Below, in pieces: positions 2,949 to 23,559 of a DNA stretch of 42,689 nt. The notes below the pieces were generated by a model. The model was not told the origin of the DNA. It did no database searches and worked only from the letters and a program-made list of their open reading frames with translations. The stretch comes from Lewinellaceae bacterium (GTDB taxonomy: Bacteria; Bacteroidota; Bacteroidia; Chitinophagales; Saprospiraceae): assembly GCA_947476195.1 (NCBI GenBank), contig CANJPT010000028.1, forward strand, positions 1-42,689, in the 5' to 3' direction. The position numbers were made by a program, and so were the translations under genes. Position 1 is the stretch's first letter; every line of letters starts with the position of its first letter.

Positions 2949-2962
2949 CTATTCCAGTCTGG

Positions 2963-2994
2963 CCGTGAACCGTCCACCGTGAACCGTCCACCGT
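2963..2994. repeat. Heptamer array 1 (3' of rpsA)
   Basis: Four perfect 7-base units plus a partial fifth: CCGTGAA, CCGTCCA, CCGTGAA, CCGTCCA, CCGT. The array begins 5 bases past the rpsA stop codon and lies inside the rpsA 3' untranslated region, before the terminator. On the rpsA mRNA it reads ACGGTNN. It belongs to the same family as the arrays at 18705, 20682, 20760 and 23212. Confidence 0.85.
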
Positions 2995-2999
2995 CAGCA

Positions 3000-5210
3000 T
3001 TACTTGTTCTCCAGCTGCTCGCGCAATTGAGCCAGGATCGAAAGATCACCGAGGGTTTCTTTCTCGACTTTCTTTTGAACGTCTACGATAGCGGCTTGGT
3101 TTTCGCCTTCTTCTTTGACGCGCTCGGCTCTCACGGCTACTTCAGCTTTGTGCTTCAGATCCTCGAGGTAGCGTGTGTGCGATACGAGTAAGCGACGGTC
3201 GTCTTTGTTGAATTCGATGACCTTCACGGTTACTGTTTCGCCAGCGTCCAGCAGATTGCCGTCGTCTTTGCGGATGTGCTTTGCAGGAGCGAATGCTTCG
3301 ATGCCTTGTGGCATTTGGAAGGTAGCACCTTTGTCGTCGCGCTTCAGCACGGTAGCCTCGTGGTAAGAACCAACCGGGAAAATGCTATCGAAAGCATCCC
3401 AAGGGTTTTCCATGATCTGCTTGTGGCCAAGGCTGATCTGACGCTTCTCATTGTCGATGTTCAGTACAACGACTTCGAGTGGGCTGCCAGGCTTCGTAAA
3501 CTCACTTGGGTGCGCATAACGCTTGGTCCAGGAAAGGTCGCTGATGTGCACCATGCCGCCTACGCCGTCGCCGAATTCAACGAAGATGCCGTAGTTGGTG
3601 ATGTTTTTCACGATACCGTCATGACGGCTACCCACTGGGAAGCGGCTTTCGATATCGCTCCATGGATCCTCTGTCAATTGCTTCACAGAGAGTGACATTT
3701 TGCGGTCGCCACGGTCAATGCTGACCACTTTGGCTTCCACTTCCTGACCCATTTTGAAGAATTCCTTGGCGTGAACCGTCTGGTTGCCCCAAGTGATCTC
3801 GCTAACGTGGATCAAGCCTTCAACACCAGGCTGGATCTCCACAAAAGCGCCGTAATCTTCAATATTGACCACTTTACCGGTAACGATAGAGCCTTCGCCC
3901 ACTTCGGCCGACAATACTTCCCATGGATGTGGGGTGAGTTGCTTAAGACCGAGGCTGATACGTTTTTTGAGTTCGTCAAAATCAAGTACCACCACGTTGA
4001 TACGCTGGTTGAGCGCAAGCACGTCGGTTGGGTGATTGATACGGCCCCAGGAGATATCGGTGATGTAAAGCAAACCGTCTACGCCGCCAAGGTCGAGAAA
4101 CGCACCGAAATCGGTGATGTTCTTAACGATACCTTCGAGTACCTGACCTTTTTCGAGGCTGCCGAGGATTTGTTCGCGTTGTTCAGCCAGATCGCTTTCG
4201 ATCAACGCCTTGTGGCTTACCACGGCATTTTTGATCTGTTCGTTGACTTTCACTACTTTGAACTCCATCATTTTGCCTACGTACTGGTCATAGTCCAATA
4301 CAGGTTTGATGTCGATCTGCGAACCAGGAAGGAAGGTTTCGAGACCGTTGCAGTCCACAATAAGACCACCTTTGGTCTTGCTGATCACAGAACCACGGAT
4401 GATCGTGCCGTTTTTGAACGAATCCACGATGCTTTCCCAGGCGCGCAGGATCTTTGCTTTGCGACGGGAAAGACCGAGTTGGCCTTGGCTGTCTTCTTGG
4501 CTTTCTACGAACACTTCTACTTCGTCGCCAGGAGCGAGACCAGGTGTGTCGCGGAATTCGCTTAACGCGATAAGACCGTCACTTTTGTAATTAATGTCAA
4601 GTACCACATCGCCTCCGCTGATAGAGCTTACGCGACCTTTGATGACCTGATTTTCCTCAATCTGGTGCAATGCTGCGTCATAAGACTTTAGCATTGTGAT
4701 TCTTTCTTCCTGGGTGTACACAATTGCACCACGCTTGTCCAGGTTCCAGTTAAAATCGTCGAATGCAGTCGCAGCAAGTGTTTCAAGCAGCGGCGTTACA
4801 TCCTCTTCGTCCTCCTCTTCAGCATTGGCAGCAACACTTTTGCCATATGCGCCTGGAGTTGGCATCCCTTCGTCCTCGGAAGCACTTACTTTAGTGCTGC
4901 GGGTTCTTTTAGGGGCAGGGGCATCTTCAACAACCGCCACTACTACTGGCGCAGCTTCTTCGGTTACTACTTCAGCCACTGGAGCGATTTCTTCAGCAGC
5001 TTCTTCTACCACTGGCGCAGCTTCTTCGGTTACTACTTCAGCCACTGGAGCGATTTCTTCAGCAGCTTCTTCTACCACTGGCGCAGCTTCTTCAACAACA
5101 GCTTCAACAACTGGTTCTGTTTCAGCAACTACCTCAGCAGCAGCTTCCATTTCAGGAGTCTCCGGCGTTTCAGTGGATTCTTGGATTGGATCTTTTTCTT
5201 CTTCTAACAT
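3000..5210 (-). CDS. rpsA: 30S ribosomal protein S1
   Basis: Ribosomal protein S1 binds mRNA and helps load it on the 30S subunit. The 736-residue product carries six S1 (OB-fold) domains in its last ~550 residues. They begin near VIKGRVSSISGGDVVLD, IIRGSVISKTKGG, VLEGIVKNITDFGAFLD, IVTGKVVNIEDYGAFVE, RHDGIVKNITNYGIFVE and the more divergent YHEATVLKRDDKGATF. The first ~150 residues are an acidic Ala/Glu/Val/Pro-rich extension, partly made of exact 22-residue tandem repeats, ending in a basic patch (PKRTRSTK). Start: the frame also has a TTG seven codons upstream, but ATG at 5210 is preferred. A -7 motif lies at 5332-5339. The long N-terminal extension is unusual compared with enterobacterial S1 (~557 residues). 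Confidence 0.97.
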   Translation of the reverse strand: MLEEEKDPIQESTETPETPEMEAAAEVVAETEPVVEAVVEEAAPVVEEAAEEIAPVAEVVTEEAAPVVEEAAEEIAPVAEVVTEEAAPVVVAVVEDAPAPKRTRSTKVSASEDEGMPTPGAYGKSVAANAEEEDEEDVTPLLETLAATAFDDFNWNLDKRGAIVYTQEERITMLKSYDAALHQIEENQVIKGRVSSISGGDVVLDINYKSDGLIALSEFRDTPGLAPGDEVEVFVESQEDSQGQLGLSRRKAKILRAWESIVDSFKNGTIIRGSVISKTKGGLIVDCNGLETFLPGSQIDIKPVLDYDQYVGKMMEFKVVKVNEQIKNAVVSHKALIESDLAEQREQILGSLEKGQVLEGIVKNITDFGAFLDLGGVDGLLYITDISWGRINHPTDVLALNQRINVVVLDFDELKKRISLGLKQLTPHPWEVLSAEVGEGSIVTGKVVNIEDYGAFVEIQPGVEGLIHVSEITWGNQTVHAKEFFKMGQEVEAKVVSIDRGDRKMSLSVKQLTEDPWSDIESRFPVGSRHDGIVKNITNYGIFVEFGDGVGGMVHISDLSWTKRYAHPSEFTKPGSPLEVVVLNIDNEKRQISLGHKQIMENPWDAFDSIFPVGSYHEATVLKRDDKGATFQMPQGIEAFAPAKHIRKDDGNLLDAGETVTVKVIEFNKDDRRLLVSHTRYLEDLKHKAEVAVRAERVKEEGENQAAIVDVQKKVEKETLGDLSILAQLREQLENK
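4945..5094 (-). repeat. 66-bp in-frame tandem repeat in rpsA
   Basis: Two identical 66-base units (4945-5010 and 5011-5076) and the first 18 bases of a third (5077-5094). Each encodes 22 residues of the form EEAAPVVEEAAEEIAPVAEV plus VT in the S1 N-terminal extension. The units are identical at DNA level, so they are recent or kept uniform; copy-number change would keep the frame. Confidence 0.95.
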
Positions 5211-5339
5211 AGTAAAATGTTTGGTTTTCAACCGCTTGGTGGGCGGAACGGGGAGTTTTTCTGGTGTGAACCTTGTGTCGACTACACTTCGGGACGAAGT
5301 CGTTGTCCCCTCGCTTTTTCAAAAGCGGGCGCGAAGGTA
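5211..5339 (-). promoter_or_regulatory. rpsA promoter and structured 5' leader
   Basis: On the minus strand a TACCTTCG -7 motif (plus coordinates 5332-5339) precedes a leader of roughly 110 bases before the ATG at 5210. The leader can form small hairpins such as GCTTTT-gaa-AAAGC and ACTTC-gtccc-GAAGT. S1 genes in enterobacteria are autoregulated through a structured leader; whether this one is controlled that way is inference. Confidence 0.5.
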
Positions 5340-5379
5340 GCATTAATTTGTGGAAAATATTATTTGTGCTTGAAATATC

Positions 5380-5406
5380 CGGGCTGCGACTTCAAGTCGC
5401 AGCCCG
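5380..5406. terminator. Strong palindrome after the hydroxylase gene
   Basis: Perfect 13-base arms, CGGGCTGCGACTT and AAGTCGCAGCCCG, flank a single central C. It begins 2 bases beyond the stop codon of the minus-strand hydroxylase gene. There is no good T-run after it, so it may be a transcript-end stabiliser or an interspersed palindrome rather than a classical terminator. It lies ~40 bases upstream of the rpsA -7 motif. Confidence 0.6.
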
Positions 5407-5408
5407 AA

Positions 5409-6248
5409 TCATGGTTCAAACTTACCGCCGGATGGCGCGCGATATTTTAAAAAAGGCAGTTTGAGCAGTTCCAAGATATTGGAATGTTCTTTTGGGTCAG
5501 GGTGTGTGTCAATGCCGAACACCAGCTTATTATTGTCCATTTTGGCAAAGGTGCCGAACAAGCGGTCCCAAATCGAAAAGATATTGCCGAAGTTAGTATC
5601 GGTGTAAGGCAACACATAATGATGGTGTACCCGGTGTACCCCGGGGGTTACAAAAAACCAACTCAATGCATCATCAAGCCATTTGGGGAATAGGATATTG
5701 GCGTGGTTGAATTGCGTGAATACCAGGGAAAGGGATTGATACATAAAAACCAGACCGATCGGAGCACCGCAAATGATGATGCCCAGGGTCGTAAAAACAA
5801 ACCGAAATATACTCTCGCCTGGATGGTGTCGGTTGGCGGTGGTAGTATCCACATTCGGGTCCGTGTGGTGCACCAGATGAAATCGCCACATCCATTTTAC
5901 CCTGTGTTCCAGCCAATGGATAAAGTAGGCGCCCACCAGATCCATTAAAAGCAATCCGATAATGAAAAACAGCCAGAGCGGCATCGCTGGCATCCACTGA
6001 AGCAGACCAATTTTTTCCGTAGCCACCCAATCTGCCGTACGCAGGAGAATAAAGGCCATCATAAAATTGACCAGTACAGTAGTAAAGGTGAAAAATAGAT
6101 TGATGCCCAGGTGGGCTGCTTTTTTATATTTGGTTCGATAATAAGGTAGACTGCTTTCCAGGAGCAGGAAAAAAGTAAGGCCTCCCAGTAAAATCGCACT
6201 GCGGTGCGAGGAAGGGATATTGGCGAAATAGTTGGCGATAGATTCCAT
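5409..6248 (-). CDS. Fatty acid hydroxylase / sterol desaturase family membrane protein
   Basis: A 279-residue integral membrane di-iron enzyme. The histidine clusters that bind iron are present in order: HWLEH (HxxxH type), HLVHH, HHPGES and HRVHHH near the C terminus, after VTPG. Hydrophobic helices precede the first cluster (SAILLGGLTFFLLLESSLPYY, then VNFMMAFILLRTADW and MPLWLFFIIGLLLMDLVGAYF). The family hydroxylates or desaturates sterols, carotenoids or fatty acids; the substrate cannot be told from sequence. The frame extends to a TTG 6 codons upstream, but ATG at 6248 is chosen because a good -7 motif lies at 6264-6270, just before it. It is transcribed towards rpsA. Confidence 0.9.
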   Translation of the reverse strand: MESIANYFANIPSSHRSAILLGGLTFFLLLESSLPYYRTKYKKAAHLGINLFFTFTTVLVNFMMAFILLRTADWVATEKIGLLQWMPAMPLWLFFIIGLLLMDLVGAYFIHWLEHRVKWMWRFHLVHHTDPNVDTTTANRHHPGESIFRFVFTTLGIIICGAPIGLVFMYQSLSLVFTQFNHANILFPKWLDDALSWFFVTPGVHRVHHHYVLPYTDTNFGNIFSIWDRLFGTFAKMDNNKLVFGIDTHPDPKEHSNILELLKLPFLKYRAPSGGKFEP

Positions 6249-6263
6249 AGAAAGTACCAAGTT

Positions 6264-6294
6264 CAAAGTAGCAAGTGGTGGTAATTTGGCAAAA
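6264..6294 (-). promoter_or_regulatory. Promoter of the hydroxylase gene
   Basis: The minus strand reads TTTTG (6290-6294), 19 bases, then TACTTTG (6264-6270), close to the Bacteroidota TTTG / TAnnTTTG consensus (one spacer base short in the -7 box). The start codon at 6248 would then have a leader of about 10 bases. Confidence 0.5.
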
Positions 6295-6631
6295 CTACAG
6301 TCCGTCTATAAATTTATGGCACCATTCAACAAAAATGTTGTCATTGAAGAGAAAATCAAATTTCCGAGCAACATTCCCTTATTTGCAGCTTTAGCGCTGG
6401 AGATAATAAAAGCAGCATTTCATTAAGGTGATCCGGAGTTAAGGGTTGAATTGTATTCCCAACCAGGGATATTAAAAGTTGCTTCATGGGCCATGTTTGG
6501 GATTTTTCTCCTAAACACCCTCGGAAATTTGCTATCTAAAAACTTGTTCGAAAAAGCCGTTTTTGCACCGAATACGCCGGTAATTTCACTATTTTGGTTG
6601 CGACGAGCAAGCGCAAAACCACCTATATAAG
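6295..6631. other. Intergenic region, no gene seen
   Basis: AT-rich sequence between the hydroxylase promoter and the DUF1348 remnant. A 75-codon minus-strand frame at 6423-6650 has no family resemblance and runs antisense into the remnant, so it is not called. Confidence 0.6.
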
Positions 6632-6757
6632 ATGGAAAATCAACGCCCACCCTTTCCCCCTTTCACCGAAGAGACTGCCCGACAAAAGATCCAGCTGGCA
6701 GAAGACGCCTGGAACAGTAAAGACTCGGAACGGGTTCAGGAAGTTCAGGCGGATTAA
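6632..6757 (+). pseudogene. N-terminal remnant of a DUF1348 (NTF2-like) gene
   Basis: ATG at 6632 opens a 41-codon frame ending in TAA at 6755-6757. The peptide ([20 protein letters not shown], then [11 protein letters not shown]) closely matches my recollection of the start of DUF1348/NTF2-like proteins, which read RPP.PPFT.ETA.QKV..AED.WNSRDPERV and continue for ~150 residues. Here similarity stops after ERV and the frame ends 7 codons later. No continuation is seen in the following 300 bases in any frame that I could read. It is therefore a truncated gene. An expressed 41-residue peptide is possible but unlikely. Confidence 0.75.
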
Positions 6758-7062
6758 GGTAGTAGAAACGTAAAGACAATGTCAAGCGTATACTTGACAT
6801 GAATGCAGGTCAAAGGCTAATTGCACCAATGGGTTTCTCTGTGCCTGTGTCAACGGAGGTTCTTCTTGATTAAAGAGACCCCTATTCGCATAAAAAGATA
6901 GTTACCCTGAAAAAAGGATATATACCTGAAAGGCACAAATTATTATTCGCCCGGTCCTGAAGTATAGCCTACGTTTAGGAAAGCAAAGCTGTTCGGCGAT
7001 TTGGGTAAAATATCCGCTACCGATCAAGTATATCCTGAAATAATCGCCTGTTCAACAAGCAT
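6758..7062. other. Intergenic region, no gene seen
   Basis: No credible frame. It contains a small inverted repeat, GTCAAG-N6-CTTGAC, at 6782-6799. It probably holds the rest of the decayed locus whose start is at 6632. Confidence 0.5.
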
Positions 7063-7797
7063 TTACAACTCCCTAACCCAAATATTCCGGTAACGTACCA
7101 GGCAGTTATGATCCTGAAGCCTAATCGGGGCTTTCCCATGAGCCTTATATTGTGGCAGACCAATATATTCTGTAGGGCCTTTAATTTCTGTGTTCAATTG
7201 AACCACGATCCCATTTTGAAGTACGGTAACGCGTGCAGGTGCAACCAGAAGACTGTCCTGATTAAATCGCGGCGCGGTATATAATATATCATAGGCCTGC
7301 CATTCCCCAGGTTTTCGGCAGGCATTCACCAAAGGAATTGCTTGCTTGTAGATACCTGCTGCCTGGCCATTGGAATAGGTCCGGTTCTGATAGCTGTCTA
7401 ACACCTGTACTTCATATAGGTTTTGCAAAAAAATGCCACTATTGCCTCTGTTCTGGCCTTCACCGCTGGCTACGACCGGCGTACTGAATTCAATATGTAA
7501 TTGAATGTCACCAAAACTTCTGCGGGTAATGATATCCCCTGCTCCTGGCTTAACGGTACAGGCCCCTTCAGCCAGGGCCCAAGAAACCTCCTTATTGTCT
7601 TTGCTACTCACCCATTCCTTCCAATGCGTACCATCGAAGAGCACAATAGCATCAGAGGCTGGTTGGGAGCCTATGCCAGGGGTAACCACCCGAGGTTCAG
7701 GGGACCACACTTCGGTAGCTTTTGGATCCGTAATCTGCGCAAAAACACCGGGTATTGTAAGGGCTGTTAACAGCAGTATTAATAGTATGCGATTCAT
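7063..7797 (-). CDS. Secreted DUF1080 (3-keto-disaccharide hydrolase type) protein
   Basis: 244 residues with a signal peptide (MNRILLILLLTALTIPGVFAQ) and one DUF1080/PF06439 jelly-roll domain filling the rest. Typical blocks are LFDGTHWKEW, IITRRSFGDIQLHIEF, NRGNSGIFLQNLYEVQVLDS, GIYKQAIPLVNACRKPGEWQ and a C-terminal YRNIWVREL. The family includes lectin-like proteins and enzymes cleaving 3-keto-glycosides in the periplasm. It follows the cytochrome gene by 4 bases and is the last gene of a minus-strand cluster that also holds a second DUF1080 protein. The pairing suggests periplasmic oxidation of sugars to 3-keto forms followed by hydrolysis; this is inference. Confidence 0.9.
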   Translation of the reverse strand: MNRILLILLLTALTIPGVFAQITDPKATEVWSPEPRVVTPGIGSQPASDAIVLFDGTHWKEWVSSKDNKEVSWALAEGACTVKPGAGDIITRRSFGDIQLHIEFSTPVVASGEGQNRGNSGIFLQNLYEVQVLDSYQNRTYSNGQAAGIYKQAIPLVNACRKPGEWQAYDILYTAPRFNQDSLLVAPARVTVLQNGIVVQLNTEIKGPTEYIGLPQYKAHGKAPIRLQDHNCLVRYRNIWVREL

Positions 7798-7801
7798 ATT
7801 T

Positions 7802-9784: not shown

Positions 9785-9880
9785 ATTTTTTCTTATTTTT
9801 AAATAACGGCATATTATGTGCCGCCTTCGAAGAAGTCAATGCTATGTGTTCTTATACAGAAACACGATATTGTTTTCTTT

Positions 9881-9953
9881 AACCACTTAGTTCACTTAGC
9901 GCATATAATGTGTTTACCATCAATACTATGTGAACTATTTGTGTTATGTGGTT
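9881..9953. repeat. Imperfect intergenic palindrome
   Basis: The left arm AACCACTTAGTTCACTTAG (9881-9899) is mirrored by 9926-9953, whose complement reads AACCACATAACACAAATAG and then TTCACATAG. It separates the DUF1080/PA14-like gene from the cytochrome gene on the same strand. It may act as a processing or attenuation hairpin. A similar style of palindrome occurs at 15818 and 26546. Confidence 0.6.
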
Positions 9954-9963
9954 ATAAACGTCT

Positions 9964-11802: not shown

Positions 11803-11821
11803 GTTTATAAACTTGTTTGCG

Positions 11822-11829
11822 CAAAAGTG
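11822..11829 (-). promoter_or_regulatory. Probable -7 element of the DUF1080/PA14-like cluster
   Basis: The minus strand reads CACTTTTG (7 of 8 to TAnnTTTG, counting T to C), 20 bases before the ATG at 11802. It supports that start over the upstream in-frame ATG at 11841, which would lie ahead of the promoter. Confidence 0.4.
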
Positions 11830-11875
11830 GCAATTCGTCACGTATTTTCAGCAGGTGTAATGTAATTCTTTTCAA

Positions 11876-11917: not shown

Positions 11918-11959
11918 GGGTTTGTGCCCCACAGGAACTTTCTTATACCATTCAAACTT

Positions 11960-15124: not shown

Positions 15125-15244
15125 TCATCCGGTAATCTTTAGTGAAACCAAAAATAGTTATCCGCATTTTAAGCGCTTGTTCGGGAATTTGTTTTGAGCC
15201 AAAACTGAGCAAATTCTAAGTATTCAGGCCAAATAATAACAGCT

Positions 15245-15796
15245 TTGACAGACTCCTCCATTATCGCCCAAACTACCCAATGGATCAACTCCGTGGTCAT
15301 TGGCTGCAATTTTTGCCCTTTTGCCGCAAAAGCGGTGCTTCGAAAAAGCATTCGCTATGTAGTATTGCCGGAGGTAACGCTGGAAAGCAGTTTAGAAGCC
15401 GTCATGGAAGAGTTACGCTACCTCGACCGAGCCGAGGATATCGAAACGACCCTGATCATTTTCCCCAACCACTTTGCAGATTTTGAGGAATATCTCGATC
15501 TGGCGGAACTGGCAGAGGATCTTTCTGTGGAACAGGATTATGAAGGGGTGTACCAGATTGCCAGTTTCCATCCAGACTATTGCTTTGCCGAAGCCGAAGC
15601 TAATGATCCGGCAAATTATACCAATCGATCCCCTTACCCTATGCTGCACTTATTACGGGAGGATAGTATTACCAAGGCGTTGGATCATTTTATTGATCCG
15701 GAGGGTATTCCGGAACGGAATATAGCTTTTGCACAGGAGAAGGGCTTGAAGTATATGCAGATGCTGCGGGCGGCTTGTCTAGAGATTGCTCGCTGA
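15245..15796 (+). CDS. DUF1415 family protein
   Basis: 183 residues matching the DUF1415 pattern: a conserved VIGCNFCPFA near the start (two Cys), then VRYVVLPE-like, ETTLIIFPNHFADFEEYLDL, YEGVYQIASFHPDYCFA, and the highly conserved NYTNRSPYPMLHLLRE block. The function of the family is unknown; the conserved Cys/His suggests metal or redox chemistry. The only start that includes the N-terminal conserved block is TTG at 15245. Upstream the frame is open only to a TGA near 15206-15208 without any ATG, and the first internal ATG would remove the Cys motif. It lies between the BNR gene and the GMC oxidoreductase on the same strand. Confidence 0.85.
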   Translation: MTDSSIIAQTTQWINSVVIGCNFCPFAAKAVLRKSIRYVVLPEVTLESSLEAVMEELRYLDRAEDIETTLIIFPNHFADFEEYLDLAELAEDLSVEQDYEGVYQIASFHPDYCFAEAEANDPANYTNRSPYPMLHLLREDSITKALDHFIDPEGIPERNIAFAQEKGLKYMQMLRAACLEIAR

Positions 15797-15817
15797 TTCT
15801 ATTTCACACAGATTTAA

Positions 15818-15872
15818 TTCACAGATTTTATACAGAACCTTCGCTCAAAACAATCTGTGTAAAATCTGTGAA
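15818..15872. repeat. Intergenic palindrome
   Basis: The arms TTCACAGATTTTATACAGA (15818-15836) and TCTGTGTAAAATCTGTGAA (15854-15872) are complementary at 18 of 19 bases around a 17-base loop. It lies between the DUF1415 gene and the GMC gene and may end transcription of the former. A short direct repeat of AAACCTGC-type units follows at about 15875-15900. Confidence 0.7.
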
Positions 15873-15914
15873 GTAAACCTGCGCTAAACCTGCACTAAAC
15901 CTAATTCAACCAAA

Positions 15915-15922
15915 TACATTTG
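15915..15922 (+). promoter_or_regulatory. -7 element of the GMC oxidoreductase gene
   Basis: TACATTTG fully matches TAnnTTTG and lies 21 bases before the ATG at 15944. No clear -33 TTTG is seen at the expected distance. Confidence 0.5.
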
Positions 15923-15943
15923 TCTCATCAAAGCACCCTGTAA

Positions 15944-17512
15944 ATGGACTACGACTACATCATCATAGGAAGCGGCTTCGGGGGCTCCGTAAGTGCCCTC
16001 CGACTCTCAGAAAAAGGCTATAAAGTCCTGGTCATCGAAAAAGGGAAATGGTACCGTACCGAAGACTTCCCCAAAACGAATTGGACCTTCTCCAAATGGC
16101 TTTGGCTGCCCTCTCTGCGCTGGTACGGAATAATGAAGATTACCATTTTCCGACATGTAGGTATCGTGTCGGGCACAGGAGTGGGCGGTGGTTCGCTGGT
16201 GTATGCCAACACGTTGCCCGTTCCCAAGCCAGCCTTCTTTAACTCCGGCAGCTGGGCCCAACTGGCCGACTGGCAACAAGAACTTCTACCCTACTACGAC
16301 CGGGCGCTGAAAATGCTCGGGGCAACCAAAAATCCGCGCTTTTTTGATGGCGAACATGCCTTGGAACAACTCGCCGAAGAGATCGGGCAAAAAGAACATC
16401 TTGATGCCACCCATGTAGCTGTGTATTTCGGCGAATCAGGTATGATACAATCGGATCCCTATTTCGGGGGCAAAGGCCCTGAACGCAGTGGCTGTACCTT
16501 CTGCGGAGGTTGCATGACTGGCTGCCAGCACAATGCCAAAAACACGTTGGACAAAAATTACCTGTACCTGGCCCAGCAACTCGGGGCAGAAATTCTGGCC
16601 GAACAAGAAGTAACGGACGTTCGCCCTATCGGTAAGGAAGACGGTTCCGATGGATACATGGTTGATTATCAATATTCTACCCGATTTATTAAAAAAAAGA
16701 GAACCCTGAAAGTCAAAGGAGTCGTATTTGCCGGAGGCGTGTTGGGAACAGTAGCCTTATTGCTAAAGTTAAAAAACACTTCCTTACCTAATTTGTCTGA
16801 CAGGGTCGGTAAAGAAGTGCGCACCAACAATGAAAGCCTAATCGCGGTCACACAGCTAGACAACTCCTCCGACCAATCACAAGGCATTGCCATTGGCGCC
16901 ATTCTGCATACCGACGAGCACAGCCACCTGGAATTGTGCCGCTATGGTGCAGGCTCCGGCGCCTGGCGACTCACTTTTTTGCCATTTGTTGAGGGGCCAA
17001 ATGCCCTGGTGCGTTTTACTAAAATGATCTGGGAGGTGCTCTCGCATCCCCGGCAATACTGGAAGTATTTTCGGGTGAAAGACTGGGCAAAAAGCTCTTC
17101 GGTCATGCTGTTCATGCAAACGCTCGACAGTACCGTGACTTTTACCAGGTCATGGTGGGGCGGTATGAAGACAGCCGTCGTGGGCAAAGAAAAGCCCACC
17201 GCATTTATCCCCCAAGCTATAGAATTAGCCCGAAAATTTGAAGTGATCCTGAAAGGGAAAGCCGTAGCGTTTGGCCTTACCCCCCTGATGGGCATTCCTG
17301 GCACGGCGCATATACTGGGTGGCGCAGTAATGGGCGCTACGCCCGAAAATGGGGTAATTGACCAGAACAATCGCGTATTTGGCTATGAAAATATGCTGGT
17401 TTGTGATGGATCTATGATCTCTGCGAATCCGGGGGTCAATCCGGCGCTGTCTATTACGGCGATCAGTGAGCGGGCGATGGATCAGGTGGAGCTGCGAATG
17501 CCGATTACATGA
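15944..17512 (+). CDS. GMC oxidoreductase, cholesterol-oxidase-like
   Basis: 522 residues. The FAD-binding Rossmann motif GSGFGGSVSALRLSEKGYKV is at residues ~9-28, and the second FAD motif (SGTGVGGGSLVYANT) is at ~76-90. A Cys-rich insertion, CTFCGGCMTGCQHNAKNTLD with Cys184, 187, 190 and 194, is typical of the cholesterol-oxidase (ChoD-like) branch of GMC enzymes and resembles a 4Fe-4S motif. The C-terminal GMC signature is GTAHILGGAVMGA followed by the NPALSITAISERAM block. No signal peptide is seen, so it is probably cytoplasmic. The substrate may be a sterol-like or other alcohol; this is inference. The last codons overlap the left arm of a 98-base palindrome shared with the end of the next, convergent gene. 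Confidence 0.9.
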   Translation: MDYDYIIIGSGFGGSVSALRLSEKGYKVLVIEKGKWYRTEDFPKTNWTFSKWLWLPSLRWYGIMKITIFRHVGIVSGTGVGGGSLVYANTLPVPKPAFFNSGSWAQLADWQQELLPYYDRALKMLGATKNPRFFDGEHALEQLAEEIGQKEHLDATHVAVYFGESGMIQSDPYFGGKGPERSGCTFCGGCMTGCQHNAKNTLDKNYLYLAQQLGAEILAEQEVTDVRPIGKEDGSDGYMVDYQYSTRFIKKKRTLKVKGVVFAGGVLGTVALLLKLKNTSLPNLSDRVGKEVRTNNESLIAVTQLDNSSDQSQGIAIGAILHTDEHSHLELCRYGAGSGAWRLTFLPFVEGPNALVRFTKMIWEVLSHPRQYWKYFRVKDWAKSSSVMLFMQTLDSTVTFTRSWWGGMKTAVVGKEKPTAFIPQAIELARKFEVILKGKAVAFGLTPLMGIPGTAHILGGAVMGATPENGVIDQNNRVFGYENMLVCDGSMISANPGVNPALSITAISERAMDQVELRMPIT

Positions 17513-17591
17513 TTTGCGATTTTGGCGCCAGAGCGTAATACCCAGCGCTGGCGCTCCTTCAAAAATCTTAAATTCTGTAATCGGCATTCGC
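17494..17591. repeat. 98-bp palindromic element between GMC and mutA-like genes
   Basis: The outer arms GCGAATGCCGATTACA (17494-17509) and TGTAATCGGCATTCGC (17576-17591) are perfect 16-base complements. Inner segments are also partly complementary (around GGCGCCAGAGCG and CGCTGGCGCTCC). A further TGATTTGCG (17510-17518) recurs inverted as CGCAAATCA at 17589-17597. The element provides the last codons of the GMC gene and the stop codon of the convergent gene. It may be a large terminator or a MITE-like insertion. Confidence 0.75.
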
Positions 17592-17594
17592 AAA

Positions 17595-18704
17595 TCAATA
17601 AAACTCCCCCCAGGCCTTCTCCGCCAATTGTCGGGTCAAAGTTTCAATATAGTAACTCCCGGCAGCTGGATCTGCCACCTCATCCAGGGCACTTTCCATT
17701 TTTAATAAATGCTGCACATTTCGGGCAATTCTGCGGCCAAAAGCCTGCGGATAACTGGCCACTTCCTCCCGTCCGGCATCATAAGGCAATACAGTGAGTT
17801 GTCCTGCACCACCTTGCACGGCAGCCATGGCCATCGTGGTTGCGCGGATCATGTTGGTATAAAGATCGTCTGAATAGGCATCTGGTTGAAAATTCACTGC
17901 AATAAAAGGAGACTGTATGGGCGCTTCCCAGGCATTCAATAAATTGAACCACAACAGTTTAAGCGCACGCAAACGGGCAATTTCCACAAAATAGCTTTTT
18001 CCGAGCGGTACAGAAAACTGTACAACCTTTGCGATATCTTCGATCGGAATGCCGCGTTCAGAGAGTTTTTGAAGGTAGGTATTCGCATTTCGGATCAACA
18101 CTGAAAGTTCCTTCTCTTCGACCACACCAACTTTAATAATTTTAAACTGCGGAAATCGATCTCTTGCATATTCCAGCAGATCAGCCAGATAGCGCCAGTC
18201 CACGATCTTTGAAACCGGTACTGGATCATAAGCCAGAGATCCGCTAAGTTGGTTGCAGGAAAGCCCTCTTTGTTTTGCCAGGTATTCTAAAAGGCCCAGG
18301 ACCATCCCTGGGTTGTCTGAAACGGCAGAGCCTGCGAAATGAATACCGATGAAATCCAAATGAATGTCCTGCATCAGATGCTCAAAATCAGCTATTTCAA
18401 GCGGACGGTCGAGCCAAAAGCAAAGACCTTCTGCCCCACCTTCCAAAGCATCGAGCGCATGACGATTGGCTACAGCCAAATCCCCTACCTTTACGTCCTC
18501 ACAAATTTGCCAGGTATTGGGCCGATCTGACAAGGCCTTGGGAGGGCTTTCAAAATCATCCGCATGTACAAAGGGGGATACCACGAGTCCATTTGACATT
18601 GACCAGCTCAGATCTTCCAAAGGCTTGTCTTTCAAATCTTTGGTGATCTGTCGCAGCCAATCAGCCTTGCTTACCTGTGGGAATTCTGAGAAGAGATTTT
18701 TCAT
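17595..18704 (-). CDS. mutA: Methylmalonyl-CoA mutase small-subunit-like protein, short
   Basis: 369 residues resembling the small (beta) subunit of methylmalonyl-CoA mutase, which pairs with MutB to interconvert methylmalonyl-CoA and succinyl-CoA. Family blocks seen: NTWQICEDVKV, ALEGGAEGLCFWLDRP, IKVGVVEEKE, a TIM-barrel-like run through SFVEIARLRALKLLWFN-type sequence, VNFQPDAYSDDLYTNMIRAT, GGAGQLTVLPYDA and DPAAGSYYIETLTRQLAEKA. The protein stops 5 residues later, where relatives usually continue with a helix and a cobalamin-domain-like region, so it appears C-terminally truncated at the palindrome. Start: the frame runs 48 codons further upstream through a heptamer array, but ATG at 18704 begins the family sequence. 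No mutB is in the window. Confidence 0.82.
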   Translation of the reverse strand: MKNLFSEFPQVSKADWLRQITKDLKDKPLEDLSWSMSNGLVVSPFVHADDFESPPKALSDRPNTWQICEDVKVGDLAVANRHALDALEGGAEGLCFWLDRPLEIADFEHLMQDIHLDFIGIHFAGSAVSDNPGMVLGLLEYLAKQRGLSCNQLSGSLAYDPVPVSKIVDWRYLADLLEYARDRFPQFKIIKVGVVEEKELSVLIRNANTYLQKLSERGIPIEDIAKVVQFSVPLGKSYFVEIARLRALKLLWFNLLNAWEAPIQSPFIAVNFQPDAYSDDLYTNMIRATTMAMAAVQGGAGQLTVLPYDAGREEVASYPQAFGRRIARNVQHLLKMESALDEVADPAAGSYYIETLTRQLAEKAWGEFY

Positions 18705-18752
18705 GGACGGTGGACGGTGGACGGTGGACAGTTTACGGTGGACGGTGCACGG
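18705..18752. repeat. Heptamer array 2 (leader of the mutA-like gene)
   Basis: Seven units of GGACGGT type (GGACGGT x3, GGACAGT, TTACGGT, GGACGGT, GCACGG). They abut the mutA-like start codon, so the mRNA reads ACCGTCCATG with nothing between array and start. With the -7 motif at 18762-18769, the array makes up nearly the whole 5' untranslated region. Confidence 0.9.
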
Positions 18753-18761
18753 ATATTGGCG

Positions 18762-18769
18762 CAAAAGTA
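18762..18769 (-). promoter_or_regulatory. -7 element of the mutA-like gene
   Basis: The minus strand reads TACTTTTG, a full match to TAnnTTTG, placing the transcript start near 18755. No good -33 TTTG is seen at the expected distance. It is divergent from the iscS promoter about 100 bases away. Confidence 0.55.
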
Positions 18770-18865
18770 AAGAATCAAAGTGCCGGTGTCCATCATTTTT
18801 CAAGTTGAAAACTTTTTGCTTAGAATTCTTCCAAAAAAGAAAAACCATTTTTCACGCAGCCTGTT

Positions 18866-18873
18866 TACCTTTG
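18866..18873 (+). promoter_or_regulatory. -7 element of the isc operon
   Basis: TACCTTTG, a full consensus match, lies 20 bases before the iscS ATG (18894), giving a leader of about 13-15 bases. Confidence 0.6.
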
Positions 18874-18893
18874 CGAATCAATCTAAATAAGAA

Positions 18894-20114
18894 ATGACTC
18901 AACGCAAGCTAATATACCTCGATAACAATGCCACCACCCCCTGCGATCCGCGTGTGGTAGATGCAATGATCCCCTATTTTTTCGAAAAACACGGCAATGC
19001 AGCCAGCCGAAGCCACCAGTATGGCTGGGAAGCAGAGGATGCCGTAGACTATGCCCGTGAGCAGATTGCTAAACTCTTAGACGTTGAGGACAAGGAAGTT
19101 ATCTTTACTTCTGGCGCTACAGAAAGCAATAACCTCGCCCTAAAAGGCGTGTTTGAAATGTATGCCAAAAAAGGCAACCACATCATAACGGCAGAGACTG
19201 AACACAAGGCAATCCTCGATACCTGTGGTCACCTGGAAAAGGCAGGCGCGGAGATTACCTACCTGAAAGTTCAGGAAGACGGCCTGATCAATCTGGCTGA
19301 CCTGGAAGCTGCCATTAAGCCTAACACGATTCTGGTCTCTCTTATGTGGGCCAATAATGAGACTGGCGTGATTCAGCCCATGCATGAGATCGCACAGATC
19401 TGTGAAAAACACGGGGTGCTTTTTCACTCAGATGCAACACAGGCTGTGGGTAAGATCCCGACACATCCACGTGAAGTAGGCGTACACTTAATGTCTTTCA
19501 CCGCACACAAAATGTACGGCCCCAAAGGCGTAGGTGCCCTTTATGTAAGCCGTAAAAACCCACGCGTTAAAGTAACTGCACAGATAGATGGCGGCGGCCA
19601 CGAGCGTGGCATGCGTTCCGGCACTTTGAATGTTCCCGGCATCGTAGGTTTCGGCAAAGCAGCCGAAATCGCACGCGAAGAAATGCAGCAAGACACAGCC
19701 CGTTTGAGCAAACTCCGTGATCACTTACAGGCGGAATTGACCAAAATGGAAGAAACTAAAGTGAACGGCACCGAGGAAAGCCGTATGCCACATGTGGCCA
19801 ATATATCCTTTAAACACGTAGAAGGAGAGGGTCTTATGATGACCTTCAACCAGAATATTGCTGTTTCTTCAGGCTCAGCCTGTACATCAGCCTCTCTGGA
19901 ACCGTCGTATGTGTTGGTAGGTATGGGCCTGGGCGACGATCTGGCTCACTCCAGCATCCGTTTCTCGCTGGGTCGATTCACCACAGAAGAAGAAGTTGAT
20001 CAAGCCATTGAGCTGGTCCGAAACGGTGTAAACCACATGCGCGATCTGAGTCCTATTTGGGAGATGTACCAGGATGGGGTGGATTTGACTAAAATTGAAT
20101 GGAGCGCACACTAA
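18894..20114 (+). CDS. iscS: Cysteine desulfurase IscS
   Basis: A 406-residue PLP enzyme that removes sulfur from cysteine and passes it as persulfide to the IscU scaffold. Seen: an N-terminal LDNNATTPCDP block, TSGATESNN (residues ~72-80), His104 in ETEHKA, and Lys206 in the PLP site SFTAHKMYGPKG. The IscS-type active Cys330 lies on the long loop SSGSACTSASLEPSYVL. The length is the usual one for IscS. It heads iscS-(small ORF)-iscU-iscA; no iscR or hscAB is present here. A perfect palindrome follows the stop. Confidence 0.96.
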   Translation: MTQRKLIYLDNNATTPCDPRVVDAMIPYFFEKHGNAASRSHQYGWEAEDAVDYAREQIAKLLDVEDKEVIFTSGATESNNLALKGVFEMYAKKGNHIITAETEHKAILDTCGHLEKAGAEITYLKVQEDGLINLADLEAAIKPNTILVSLMWANNETGVIQPMHEIAQICEKHGVLFHSDATQAVGKIPTHPREVGVHLMSFTAHKMYGPKGVGALYVSRKNPRVKVTAQIDGGGHERGMRSGTLNVPGIVGFGKAAEIAREEMQQDTARLSKLRDHLQAELTKMEETKVNGTEESRMPHVANISFKHVEGEGLMMTFNQNIAVSSGSACTSASLEPSYVLVGMGLGDDLAHSSIRFSLGRFTTEEEVDQAIELVRNGVNHMRDLSPIWEMYQDGVDLTKIEWSAH

Positions 20115-20117
20115 GTT

Positions 20118-20140
20118 AATGTGGTCAATTTGACCACATT
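20118..20140. promoter_or_regulatory. Perfect 23-base palindrome between iscS and iscU
   Basis: AATGTGGTCAA-t-TTGACCACATT has 11-base arms. The TGGTC...GACCA core resembles sites of GntR/FadR-family regulators. A further half site, ACCACATT, lies at 20151-20158. Its position, 160 bases before iscU, suits an operator for iscU-iscA; it could also be a short terminator, but no T-run follows. Confidence 0.6.
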
Positions 20141-20162
20141 ATACTAATTTACCACATTTATC

Positions 20163-20267
20163 ATGAGTCCAATTCAAAGTCCTCCAGATCCGTTCACCCA
20201 ACTGATTTACCGTATTTACTACGGGATAAAAGGATTTTATTACTCGTTATTTAAACGAAAAAAATAA
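20163..20267 (+). CDS. Small hypothetical protein, 34 residues
   Basis: ATG at 20163 to TAA at 20265-20267. The peptide starts MSPIQSPPDPFTQLIYRIYY and ends in the basic tail KRKK, with an aromatic middle (GIKGFYYSLF) that could form a short membrane-associated helix. It lies in line between iscS and iscU, 48 bases after one and 32 bases before the other. I do not recognise a family. The case for a gene rests on position and on the ordered amphipathic composition only. Confidence 0.35.
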   Translation: MSPIQSPPDPFTQLIYRIYYGIKGFYYSLFKRKK

Positions 20268-20299
20268 GCCTCACTCATTCACTCAATCACTCATTCTCT

Positions 20300-20740
20300 A
20301 TGGCATATTCAGAAAAAGTACTCGACCACTTCAAAAGCCCACGAAATGTAGGCACGCTCAATAAAGATGCAAAAAACGTAGGCACTGGCCTCGTAGGTGC
20401 TCCTGAATGTGGAGATGTAATGCGTCTCCAGATTGAAGTAGATGAAGCTACTGGTCTCATCAGCGATGCTAAATTCAAAACCTTTGGTTGTGGATCGGCC
20501 ATTGCCTCTTCTTCCTTGGCTACAGAATGGCTCAAAGGCAAAAGCCTCGAAGACGCCATGCGCATTGATAATATGGACATCGTGGAAGAACTGGCCCTCC
20601 CGCCCGTTAAGATCCACTGCTCCGTACTTGCAGAAGACGCGATCAAATCCGCCATCGCAGATTACCAACAGAAAAACGGGATAACGGCTGACGGTACTCG
20701 GCAGACGGTACACGGCGAGCCTGCGCTTGAAACCATTTAA
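20300..20740 (+). CDS. iscU: Iron-sulfur cluster scaffold IscU
   Basis: IscU assembles Fe-S clusters using sulfur from IscS. All ligands are present: Cys37 with Asp39 (GAPECGDV), Cys64 (FGCGSA) and Cys107 (VKIHCSVLAEDAI). The usual IscU ends near AIADYQQKN (residue ~126). Here the protein continues for ~20 residues (from GITADGTRQTVH to the terminal PALETI) that are encoded mostly by a tandem 7-base repeat array (20682-20716), so the tail probably arose by repeat insertion over the original stop. iscA follows after 56 bases that contain a second, complementary array. Confidence 0.95.
   Translation: MAYSEKVLDHFKSPRNVGTLNKDAKNVGTGLVGAPECGDVMRLQIEVDEATGLISDAKFKTFGCGSAIASSSLATEWLKGKSLEDAMRIDNMDIVEELALPPVKIHCSVLAEDAIKSAIADYQQKNGITADGTRQTVHGEPALETI
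20682..20716. repeat. Heptamer array 3 (3' end of iscU)
   Basis: Five units: TAACGGC, TGACGGT, ACTCGGC, AGACGGT, ACACGGC. They are coding, giving part of the IscU C-terminal extension. On the mRNA they read ACGGT. The segment ACGGTACACGG (20705-20715) is the exact complement of CCGTGTACCGT (20767-20777) in array 4. Confidence 0.8.
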
Positions 20741-20759
20741 TGTTTTTGAGCCACATTCC

Positions 20760-20794
20760 CCGTAAACCGTGTACCGTGCACCGTAAACCGTAAG
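20760..20794. repeat. Heptamer array 4 (leader of iscA)
   Basis: Five units: CCGTAAA, CCGTGTA, CCGTGCA, CCGTAAA, CCGTAAG, then TT and the iscA ATG at 20797. It can pair with array 3 to form a hairpin whose loop carries the iscU stop codon. Confidence 0.9.
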
Positions 20795-20796
20795 TT

Positions 20797-21123
20797 ATGA
20801 TTTTCGTAGCAGAAAGCGCCAAGCAAAAAATTCAGGAAGTCCGTCAGGCATCTAAGATGGATGACAACTACTTCGTCCGGGTCAGTGTCACTTCTGGGGG
20901 ATGTTCTGGTTTATCCTACAAATTAGATTTCGACAACGAATCGAAGCCCAACGATCAGGTTTTTGAAAACAATGGGATTAAAGTCGTGACTGATCTAAAG
21001 AGTTTCCTGTACCTGTTTAATACTACCCTGGAGTTTTCGGGTGGATTGGATGGGAAGGGTTTTTCATTTAACAACCCGAATGCTACGAGGACTTGCGGGT
21101 GCGGAGAGAGTTTTGCGGTGTAG
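20797..21123 (+). CDS. iscA: IscA/HesB-type iron-sulfur carrier protein
   Basis: 108 residues of the A-type carrier family, which delivers Fe-S clusters or iron to apo-proteins. The three conserved cysteines are present: Cys36 in TSGGCSGLSY, and Cys100 and Cys102 in TRTCGCGESF. The FNNPNAT block before the last pair is typical. It is the third recognisable gene of the isc operon and ends at a clear terminator. The name iscA reflects the operon context; sufA or erpA would be equally possible by sequence. Confidence 0.93.
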   Translation: MIFVAESAKQKIQEVRQASKMDDNYFVRVSVTSGGCSGLSYKLDFDNESKPNDQVFENNGIKVVTDLKSFLYLFNTTLEFSGGLDGKGFSFNNPNATRTCGCGESFAV

Positions 21124-21158
21124 TTATTTTTGGATCGATTATATGTTATGATTTTTTT

Positions 21159-21184
21159 AGGCCACCTTTGGGTGGCCTTTTTTG
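21159..21184 (+). terminator. Rho-independent terminator of the isc operon
   Basis: AGGCCACC-tttg-GGTGGCCT forms an 8-base stem with a 4-base loop, followed by TTTTT, 36 bases after the iscA stop and just before the convergent rnr gene. Confidence 0.9.
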
Positions 21185-21201
21185 TTGCCCCACATCATAC
21201 A

Positions 21202-23559
21202 TCATTGTTCCACCAGCTCCATCTCAACCTGCCGTTTCGCCAAATCCACCGCAGCAATCTTCACCCTGATCCGATCTCCCATTTTAAAGGATTTCTTATA
21301 CCGGCGGCCTGTGGCGCGAAGGTTCCCTTCTTCCAGGGTGTAGGTATCGTCCAGATATTTAAAGTCCACCAGGCCTTCGGCTTTTGAGCCTGCCAGTTCC
21401 ACAAAGAAGCCCCGTTCGATGATGCCACTGATCACACCATCGAAGGTTTCTCCGATGCGGGTGGACATGAATTCAGCCTGTTTGTATTTGGTGCTTTCGC
21501 GTTCGGCCTCTGCGGCTTTGCGTTCCTGGTTGCTGATGTGCTTGCACTGTTCTTCCAGTTTGGCGGCATCTACCCGGTAAGTTTTACCATCAAGGTTTCG
21601 CTCCAGGATACGGTGTGCCAGCACGTCGGAATAGCGCCGGATCGGCGAGGTAAAGTGCGAATAATGCGTGAAGCCCAGACCGTAGTGACCGATGTTGTTC
21701 GGACTGTACACCGCTTTGGCCATGGTACGGATCGCCAATGGTTCGAGCACTTTCAGGCGGTCGTCTGTTCGGGCCCGTTTCATCAATTCGTTGAAGGACT
21801 GTGCGATCTGCTTGGGCGTATCTACTTTCATCTGAACCCCCAATTCTAAGGCAAAGCGTGCAAAGTCGGCGATCTTGGACATATCCGGCAGATCGTGTAT
21901 CCGGAAAATAAAGGGAATAATAGCGCCGCTTTTCACGCCGGAACCGTCCTCTTCTTTTCCTTTTTTAAGTGGTGGCTGCATGTATAGTGCCACTTCTTTA
22001 TTGGCCAGCAACATGAAGTCTTCTATCAGCAAGTGCGCTTCTTTGCGCTCTTTCACAAAGGCTTCTAATGGTGTTCCATCCGGAGCAAGGCGGAAACGCA
22101 CCTCATCGGTTTCAAAGCCGATAGCGCCGTTTTTCTCGCGCTCCTTGCGCATTTTACTGGCCAGGCGCTGGAGGTTTTTAAGTGCCCATTCCAGTTCGTC
22201 GAAACGTGGATGGTTTTGCAATTCCTCCGAAGGCTTTTTGTCCAAAATGGTTTGGGCCTCTTCGTAGGAAAAACGTTTTGCACTGTGGATCACAGTTTTG
22301 CCAAACCAACGGGAAACGATCTTGTCTTTCGGGTCAAAAGCAAACACCGCCGAAAAAGTCAATCGATCCTGCTCCGGCACGAGAGAACAAAGGTTGTTGG
22401 ATAGTTTTTCAGGCAACATTGGGTTGCAACGATCTACCAGATATACGGAAGTACTGCGTTCAAATGCCTCACGGTCGAGCGCAGAATCGGGTTTCAGGTA
22501 GTGTGTTACATCGGCGATATGGATGCCGATCTCCAGGTTGCCACTTTCGAGCTCCCGGATGCTCAGGGCATCGTCAAAGTCTTTGGCATCTTCCGGGTCA
22601 ATGGTGAACGTAAGGATATCGCGAAAATCGCGGCGGCGTTCGATCTCTTGTGGAGAAATGGTATCAGGGATACGTGCTGCTTCTAGTTCGGCTTCTTCAG
22701 AGTGGGAAAGCTGGAATCCGGCATTGATCAGGATCTTGTTCATCTCCAGCTCATGGCCTCCGATCTTACCCAGCACCTGGGTTACTTTTCCGACCGGAAC
22801 ACGGCCCTTTCCTTCCTGCCAGTCCGTGACTTTCACCACGACCTTATCGCCGTCTTTGGCCTCATGTATGGCCTCGATGGGGATAAAGATATCGGTAGGC
22901 ACATTTTGATTGTCCGGGATAAAGAGGGCGTATTTTCGGTTGAGCCGGAGCGTACCGATGAAAAACTCATTGGCGCGTTTGAGTACCTCTAAGACCTCGC
23001 CTTCTGGTTTTCGTTGTGTTAGTGGGGTACCCCGCCGACCTCCACCCCGAAAAGGAGCAGGTGCAAAGAGTATTACTTGTACGATATCTCCGTTTAAGGC
23101 CCCATTCACGTACTTAGGCGCCACGTAAACGTCCGAATCCAGTAGTTCAGACACGATGTAAGCTGCCCCCGTCCGGGTCATATCTACCCTCCCTTCAACG
23201 ATTTTTCGGGTGGATGGTGCACGGTGCACGGTGGACGGTTCACGGTGCACGGTAGACGGTTCATGGTGTGCGGTGGACGGTTCACGGTGGCCGCTGTTGG
23301 TTTGTGGTTTGTCTTCTATGGTCAGGCGTCCGAGTGCAATTCCGAATTTATTGTCGGCAAACTGCGCAACCGAGCCCACCTGCACCAATTGGAGTAGGGC
23401 ATGTTCGGCGGAGTCCCGATTATTTTCAATACGAAGTTGGTCGGTGATTTGGCGCGGCGCGAAACTCTTTTTGGGGTGGCCGAGCAGGAATTTGAGGATT
23501 TCGATCTGGAGTTCTTGAGCGGTCAGTTTTTTGCCGCTGTTCTTTTTTTTCTTGGTCAT
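21202..23559 (-). CDS. rnr: Ribonuclease R
   Basis: A 785-residue 3'-5' exoribonuclease of the RNase II/R family that degrades structured RNA. Order: a lysine-rich start and winged-helix region (residues ~10-85, LTAQELQIEILKFLLGHPKK); a repeat-encoded linker (91-117, four copies of HREPSTV type); cold-shock domains (from KIVEGRVDMTRTGAAYIV); the RNB catalytic domain with the Asp cluster DPEDAKDFDDA; and the conserved YGLGFTHYSHFTSPIRRYSD block. A C-terminal S1 domain (FDGVISGIIERGFFVELAGS) follows, with a short tail. Length is normal. The linker is built on a 7-base tandem array, so loss or gain of one unit would shift the frame after the first domain. Confidence 0.96.
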   Translation of the reverse strand: MTKKKKNSGKKLTAQELQIEILKFLLGHPKKSFAPRQITDQLRIENNRDSAEHALLQLVQVGSVAQFADNKFGIALGRLTIEDKPQTNSGHREPSTAHHEPSTVHREPSTVHRAPSTRKIVEGRVDMTRTGAAYIVSELLDSDVYVAPKYVNGALNGDIVQVILFAPAPFRGGGRRGTPLTQRKPEGEVLEVLKRANEFFIGTLRLNRKYALFIPDNQNVPTDIFIPIEAIHEAKDGDKVVVKVTDWQEGKGRVPVGKVTQVLGKIGGHELEMNKILINAGFQLSHSEEAELEAARIPDTISPQEIERRRDFRDILTFTIDPEDAKDFDDALSIRELESGNLEIGIHIADVTHYLKPDSALDREAFERSTSVYLVDRCNPMLPEKLSNNLCSLVPEQDRLTFSAVFAFDPKDKIVSRWFGKTVIHSAKRFSYEEAQTILDKKPSEELQNHPRFDELEWALKNLQRLASKMRKEREKNGAIGFETDEVRFRLAPDGTPLEAFVKERKEAHLLIEDFMLLANKEVALYMQPPLKKGKEEDGSGVKSGAIIPFIFRIHDLPDMSKIADFARFALELGVQMKVDTPKQIAQSFNELMKRARTDDRLKVLEPLAIRTMAKAVYSPNNIGHYGLGFTHYSHFTSPIRRYSDVLAHRILERNLDGKTYRVDAAKLEEQCKHISNQERKAAEAERESTKYKQAEFMSTRIGETFDGVISGIIERGFFVELAGSKAEGLVDFKYLDDTYTLEEGNLRATGRRYKKSFKMGDRIRVKIAAVDLAKRQVEMELVEQ
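23212..23288. repeat. Heptamer array 5 (inside rnr)
   Basis: Eleven units of NNACGGT type (GGATGGT, GCACGGT x2, GGACGGT, TCACGGT, GCACGGT, AGACGGT, TCATGGT, GTGCGGT, GGACGGT, TCACGGT), 77 bases in all. Read on the minus strand it codes for a 7-residue peptide period (HREPSTV). Three units equal 21 bases, so only changes by three units keep the frame. Confidence 0.95.

Follow-up and report, generated by a model that had tools for sequence, protein, structure and literature searches.

The tandem ACGGTNN arrays found at gene boundaries in a 42,689-nt stretch of Lewinellaceae DNA (the window) are very likely, judging from sequence comparisons, the end arms of small IVS/S23-like selfish elements that reside outside rRNA, mostly as gene-less copies or solo ends. 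A complete element would consist of a PF05635 gene, coding for the four-helix-bundle protein IVP, flanked by two facing arrays that use the same short word, which here would be ACGGT followed by two free letters. Most copies appear to lack the gene and to persist as two-armed hairpins or as solo arms.

All five NNACGGT arrays that the original prediction had placed in the window were present (Table 1). Four of them lie at gene boundaries (the rpsA stop, the mutA-like ATG, the end of iscU and the iscA ATG) and the fifth is in frame in rnr. Their orientation also agrees with the earlier description, with ACCGTNN preceding starts and ACGGTNN standing at gene ends. Exact ACGGTNNACGGT pairs occurred 15 times on the two strands of the window, whereas 200 second-order Markov sequences had 0.075 such pairs on average and never more than 1. 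The iscU array, located in a lengthened 3′ end of this gene, is weak, with two exact units and the others degenerate, and the iscA array is found 5 nt before the iscA ATG (2 nt if the NN letters are counted). An alignment with 19 orthologues shows that the linker holding the tail of the rnr array is freely variable and that none of these orthologues has an array of this size at that position. The Rnr genes of the genomes G009 and G007 harbour a three-unit ACGGT-like stretch (two exact units; LERLTVDD codons) just before the linker. When predicted folding was compared to that of shuffled sequences, three two-armed arrays folded strongly (z -7.2, -9.3 and -3.0), and the single arrays at rpsA and mutA folded no better than shuffles (z -1.05 and -0.10, respectively).

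Table 1. Arrays of the window, with window positions, and the complete element on contig C57 of the same genome (G000), with contig positions
Feature	Positions	Strand	Context
One-armed ACGGTNN array	2962..2994	-	Follows the rpsA stop codon, with 5 nt between stop and head, and precedes a terminator-like hairpin
One-armed ACGGTNN array	18707..18753	+	2 nt 5′ of the start of a methylmalonyl-CoA-mutase-like gene (mutA-like; PF01642)
Octamer array (TCACTCAT)	20271..20299	-	Ends directly before the iscU ATG
Degenerate left arm	20684..20716	+	Overlaps the 3′ end of iscU; faces 20759..20791
Right arm	20759..20791	-	Directly 5′ of the iscA ATG; faces 20684-20716
In-frame ACGGTNN array	23214..23288	+	Variable linker of ribonuclease R (rnr); head abuts the conserved RKIVEGRV block
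Complete element, G000:C57	+ arm 21521-21574; PF05635 gene 21650-21964; - arm 22052-22098		ACGGT arms

Other repeats were noted as well. A 33/66-bp tandem repeat was reported by TRF at 4940-5114 of the window, close to the N terminus of rpsA. Nine- and eleven-mer arrays (ACAGGATAA, TAAACCTGCAC and ATCCTGTAA) at 26552-26577 and 15801-15902 of the window and at L069:13819-14372 resemble further word families, and short stretches at about 6861-6961 and 17496-17611 of the window recur several times in G033 and G010, respectively, at about 72-87% identity.

PF05635 genes and facing word arms

A scan of GTDB yielded at least 116 named stretches with ACGGT arrays, from many phyla. Comparison of 748 ORFs of these loci revealed one small protein in three genomes, located beside or between the arms in two of them. 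This protein belongs to PF05635, the 23S rRNA intervening-sequence protein (IVP), and to TIGR02436 (four helix bundle protein), and it has weak bAvd/Avd matches as well.

The genome to which the window belongs (G000; 4.76 Mb in 224 contigs) has seven PF05635 matches, of which five are over the cut-off. These five have facing word arms, as judged by eye, and the two sub-threshold matches are without arms. The IVP copy on contig C14 has facing arms of opposite polarity, and the gene of the complete C57 element matches PF05635 with an E value of 4e-29 and PDB 2gsc with an E value of 5e-14. The window arrays themselves harbour no PF05635 gene. The words of the octamer array before iscU, read by eye, are those of the arms of a broken PF05635 locus (G000:C21:13502).

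The C57 element occupies the gap between pyrR and pyrB (genes identified by eye). The same gap holds a gene-less ACGGT hairpin in G021, G060 and G028, a TGAACGA hairpin in G010 and another G-rich stretch in G022, and it is interrupted by N in G017. The ATG found at this gap in G010, G017, G021, G022, G028 and G060 is replaced by the outer arm in G000, where an in-frame stop is closely followed by the first in-frame start candidate, a GTG that the last array unit forms; the other candidate, a TTG further in, was chosen by the gene caller. The arrays share words, facing geometry and this orthologous gap with PF05635-bearing elements, which supports the mobile or amplified element proposed earlier. 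On the same contig, L053:2876-2994 (G000:C57:20475-20593) contains a repeat of about 100 nt that accounts for dozens of the 71 matches in G033, frequently with both strands matching at a single site; this repeat is another high-copy palindromic element.

Within the genus, PF05635 was found in 39 of 42 genomes, in 38 of them over the cut-off. The flanks of the genus IVP genes scored above the maximum inverted-repeat score of 122 control genes in 29/33 cases and above the 95th percentile in 32/33. For IVP genes of other genomes these counts were 22/31 and 28/31, which is slightly generous as their flanks were 350 nt long compared to 300 nt in the controls, all of which were taken from G022. Tandem arrays were present on both sides of 19 of the 23 IVP genes sampled (G022, n = 11; G034, n = 8; G009, n = 4). 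The IVP genes of L513, L517, L521 and L529 are without tandem arrays on both sides, and the two sides of L527 differ in word. A G-rich left flank together with a C-rich right flank was seen at just 20/35 IVP loci, by a crude count over 130 nt before and 120 nt after the gene in which one gene was counted twice.

ACGGT pairs were found on both sides of the IVP gene at eight loci, from four named phyla, among them Gemmatimonadetes, Planctomycetota and Chloroflexota, and one unassigned genome. A PF05635 match is present in 298 of 395 Bacteroidota genomes, so that its presence in 13/13 array genomes searched is weak evidence when taken alone. Because a four-unit ACGGT match was found in only 11 of these 395 genomes (own included), PF05635 presence alone predicts nothing about the ACGGT word. 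Among 20 high-scoring IVP genes of other Bacteroidota, hand-picked from the PF05635 list at one per genome, 5 scored above the control maximum and 11 above the 95th percentile, and 10 had arrays on both sides. These counts suggest that word arms are frequent but shorter outside the genus. IVP genes of other Bacteroidota (L562-L581) carry other short words, AGTGGCT, AGGTAGC and TGAGCTA among them.

The genus IVP genes with ACGGT arms (G000, G023, G031 and G060) form one clade (100/100), together with a G009 gene whose arms, AGGGTNN, are one base off. The G060 gene (L438) was labelled ACGGT by hand, exact pairs being present on just one of its sides. L469, whose score of 32 did not exceed the control maximum, was left out of the IVP tree because it has fewer than 80 residues. 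On the tree of 64 IVP genes the ACGGT label needed 5 changes, and none of 500 shuffles gave a number as low. At least 4 changes are forced, and therefore, across phyla, the word does not belong to a single protein lineage. Arm similarity correlated with protein identity among the 33 genus IVP genes (Mantel r 0.37, 0/2000 permutations). In addition, gene-less arrays with half or more of their 9-mers in common with IVP arms were more numerous for the arms of the own genome than for those of two other genomes (G034, 11/24 versus 0 and 0; G022, 18/77 versus 5 and 4; G009, 3/8 versus 0 and 1), and 59/77 gene-less arrays of G022 match the IVP arms of their own genome poorly. Array density increased with PF05635 copy number (Spearman 0.83, p 0.0016, 11 genomes), as measured in samples of 57-400 kb at an array score of at least 45 and with a statistic that ignores descent. 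The closest relative, G033, has 10 IVP matches versus just 8 four-unit ACGGT matches.

The arrays might instead be made by another driver, such as a RAYT/IS200 transposase or a reverse transcriptase, with the IVP gene as one passenger. We know of no catalytic activity of IVP, and several IVP clades have ACGGT arms, both of which would fit such a driver. Nevertheless, we consider it unlikely, since IVP is repeatedly the enclosed gene, the words follow IVP relatedness, and the other recurring ORF clusters in the at least 116 named loci were only common families or array-encoded frames.

Composition and distribution of the arrays

The three-unit exact pattern ACGGTNNACGGTNNACGGT (ACGGTNN) has 166 matches in G000, compared to 1 for the reversed control. 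This difference, the Markov sequences and the restriction of four-unit matches to the same genus among 60 genomes searched speak against chance or an artefact, which we reject. The arrays of G000 are either one-armed or facing pairs, (ACGGTNN)n followed by (ACCGTNN)m, which form inverted repeats. Their free NN letters carry 3.4 of 4 bits and the core positions deviate in 2-9% of the units, a fixity that is overstated because array calling favours the core. Several other readings were considered and set aside. The units are arranged head to tail with two free bases and no unique spacers, which rules out CRISPR, and the core A is not singled out as it would be by DGR-like adenine mutation of the NN letters. 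A front growing toward the head and overwriting DNA was not adopted, because the cleaner heads observed in G000 (19 versus 5, p 0.007) were not observed in two other sets (10 versus 6 and 45 versus 38).

A four-unit ACGGT match was found in 10 of 60 genomes (own included), all of them among the 37 of the same genus and none among the 23 others. On an rnr tree of 30 genomes, in which G060 and G062 were scored positive from array-like matches, the array-positive genomes fall in several separate places. Whole-genome searches behind loci of the GTDB scan gave matches in 14/14 genomes, ranging from 1 to 871 and reaching tens to hundreds in 12; one of these genomes (Saprospiraceae Bin_29) has counts equal to those of G022 and is probably the same genome. 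Viral contigs contained at least 120 three-unit stretches, many of which may be chance. The reversed control TGGCANN had many tandem matches in the Bacteroidota genomes G437, G284, G182 and G157 (89, 39, 29 and 22, respectively), which probably represent another word family.

In orthologous gaps of sister species, arrays of different words were found (words read by eye). The iscU-iscA gap contains ACGGTNN in G000, TGAACGA in G010, GGACNNN in G028 and ATATGAG in G017; no obvious array was seen by eye in G033, and in G021 the gap consists of only 2 nt (TC) between stop and start. Downstream of rpsA, G033 carries GGACGTT units and G021 and G060 carry degraded ACGGT units, in each case followed by a terminator-like hairpin. 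The zone before the mutA-like gene has other words in G033, G010, G028 and G060. In 400 kb of G022 chosen blind, the intergenic DNA contained 70 arrays of period 7 and 77 of periods 8-11, and the small genomes G035 and G011 had 1 and 2 arrays in 80 kb each. The target preference that the original prediction had suggested was not borne out: the sites fit insertion in unconstrained DNA followed by selection, as illustrated by the variable Rnr linker and the 2-nt gap in G021.

Plain replication slippage could expand heptamers in unconstrained DNA, in gaps that IVP genes merely share. Among long simple repeats, heptanucleotides form the most abundant class in most genomes rich in such repeats, and slippage has been put forward for them (Mrazek 2007, as told in PMC4679880), and higher-order duplications inside the arrays point in the same direction. 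However, the core is nearly fixed whereas the NN letters are nearly free, and the same ACGGT core recurs tens to hundreds of times in 9 genomes of other phyla and one unassigned genome (chosen for prior matches). Moreover, IVP genes are enclosed by facing word arms, and three genomes that lack PF05635 had no arrays at score 45 over the 257 kb covered (at score 40 there was one, in G035). Slippage by itself thus seems quite improbable.

Polarity of the arrays at gene edges

The ACGGT strand generally begins beside a gene and points outward from it, whether the adjoining edge is a start or a stop. If the arms are the outer ends of elements, their heads would adjoin genes, and the ACGGT strand of each arm would begin beside the flanking gene and read toward the middle of the element. 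The polarity set of G000 comprised 50 runs of at least three exact units, 9 of which lie within predicted genes. For the 41 non-coding runs, the head (5′ end of the ACGGT strand) was within 8 nt of a gene end in 29/41 cases (median 4 nt), compared to 3/38 for the tail (median 72.5 nt); these genes came from a simple predictor of our own, so that start codons are approximate. Of the 26 G000 gaps that hold a single run between two known neighbours, 23 have the nearer gene on the head side. In the at least 116 named loci elsewhere, heads were within 9 nt of stop-codon ends in 30/65 cases and tails in 10/62, and for start-codon ends the counts were 8/56 and 3/47, respectively, based on crude ORF calls and with several loci from one genome.

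The polarity is not restricted to ACGGT, as many words show it. Outward polarity was observed for ACGGT arrays in G022 (9/12), G021 (23/23) and G000 (27/31), and for non-ACGGT words in G022 (65/80), G021 (26/31) and, more weakly, G000 (18/30); the stretches used for G021 had been selected because of their ACGGT arrays. In G009 and G034, two large genomes that are ACGGT-negative, arrays of other words followed the same rule (12/15 and 19/26, respectively). Of 37 arrays between convergent gene pairs, taken from three genomes and from all word families, 32 kept the polarity. Over the first 15-nt bin, non-array gaps had an outward G skew of about 0.3 beside starts and of about -0.03 to 0.07 beside stops, and array gaps had 0.12 to 0.37 at stops. 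These values indicate that a general gene-edge skew explains the polarity partly at starts and hardly at stops. Genome-wide, the arrays were neither placed at random nor indifferent in orientation, and they were not absent outside the five sites of the window.

It is very improbable that the arrays are a host regulatory signal kept for function, with trailer and leader arrays acting on the mRNA (pairing, RNase III or translation): the outward polarity at both kinds of edge, the strong predicted folding of two-armed arrays and the proposal that TAACTGA repeats are translational signals (PMC4679880) would agree with it, but sister species differ in word at the same gap and G021 has no array there, the polarity persists in convergent gaps, one array is inside Rnr and the single arms at rpsA and mutA do not fold. 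For the last reason and because of the convergent genes, the RNA-level signal that had been offered as an alternative is not needed. Taken as a whole, the mobile or amplified element of the original prediction was supported, and its target preference and RNA-level signal were not.

Related systems and proposed mode of spread

In MITEs and REP/BIME-RAYT pairs, small non-autonomous inverted-repeat copies exist beside a rarer gene-bearing form, and the gene-less copies described here resemble them in this respect. The ends here are tandem words, in contrast to those systems, and no target-site duplication was noticed by eye in the arrays and gaps inspected. Terminal inverted repeats without a gene, by which MITEs are recognised, are found in the two-armed copies and not in the one-armed ones. 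The cyanobacterial STRR heptanucleotide repeats are tandem heptamers between genes, as are the arrays here. To our knowledge, dispersed bacterial heptamer repeats have no agreed source so far.

For terminal arms of IVS/S23-like elements, an IVP oligomer would bind the phased words of its own element and help copies to spread in trans. The arms might be copied or inserted in trans, perhaps via a polymerase or reverse transcriptase as with the relative Avd, which serves a reverse transcriptase. As PF05635 resembles Avd (PMC10053308), a borrowed polymerase is a reasonable guess, no more. Insertion would be broadly random, and selection would purge it from functional DNA, leaving copies at gene edges, in gaps and in variable linkers. 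Solo arms may arise by loss of the remainder of the element.

The 23S rRNA IVS with an S23/IVP gene (Leptospira, Coxiella) have the PF05635-type gene in common with these elements. The Coxiella IVS contains tandem GACAGAT heptamers before the S23p gene, in two or three sets among strains; its stem is removed by RNase III, and it has been termed selfish (PMC4990558). This is reminiscent of the C57 element, with its ACGGT heptamers and its gene enclosed by inverted repeats. According to the same source, S23p is probably not made in vivo in Coxiella, the Xanthomonas IVP is a homopentamer, no function is known for S23/IVP proteins and little is known about what rRNA intervening sequences do (PMC4990558). 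Unlike rRNA IVS, the copies described here lie outside rRNA, in gene gaps and a protein linker, number tens to hundreds, are mostly without a gene and use many words per genome. We file the C57 element and the window arrays as IVS-like and not as rRNA IVS, as they are located in protein-gene gaps or a linker.

TAACTGA heptamer repeats have been described in Beggiatoaceae, cyanobacteria and Bacteroidetes (PMC4679880), and TAACTGA-like words are present in G034. Their unit differs from ACGGTNN, but they are similarly patchy over phyla. In Maribeggiatoa they are mostly forward just before starts, and in one Bacteroidetes species a set is reversed right after a stop, both of which correspond to the outward polarity observed here, whereas Microcystis has both orientations (6 forward, 8 reversed, 8 between stops) (PMC4679880). 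We noticed neither a link to IVP nor a facing-arm rule in that account of these repeats. The GGGACCG heptamers of Geobacter metallireducens, at 49 sites, are likewise dispersed and tandem and were described as putative regulatory elements (PMC2700814). In the open-access literature we noticed no paper linking IVP genes to dispersed tandem arrays, the nearest being the Coxiella IVS paper (PMC4990558), and, by title and start of the abstract, nothing related to the array sequence and none on Saprospiraceae repeats.

More tentatively, we suggest that a small Avd-like protein without its own transposase might define and spread tandem-word arrays, with one word per protein lineage, and that the dispersed 7-11-nt intergenic repeats of many phyla (ACGGTNN, TAACTGA and perhaps the cyanobacterial heptamers) might mostly be its gene-less ends. 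Arrays as the ends of IVP elements would provide one possible origin for a widespread and unexplained class of bacterial repeat, and linking S23/IVP proteins, rRNA intervening sequences and dispersed heptamers makes each of them testable. IVP genes have been reported at CRISPR loci (PMC3936711; PMC10910872), which raises the question whether they are there owing to their own repeat arms. If true, this origin would account for much of the fast-changing intergenic DNA in the genus, and perhaps in other phyla.
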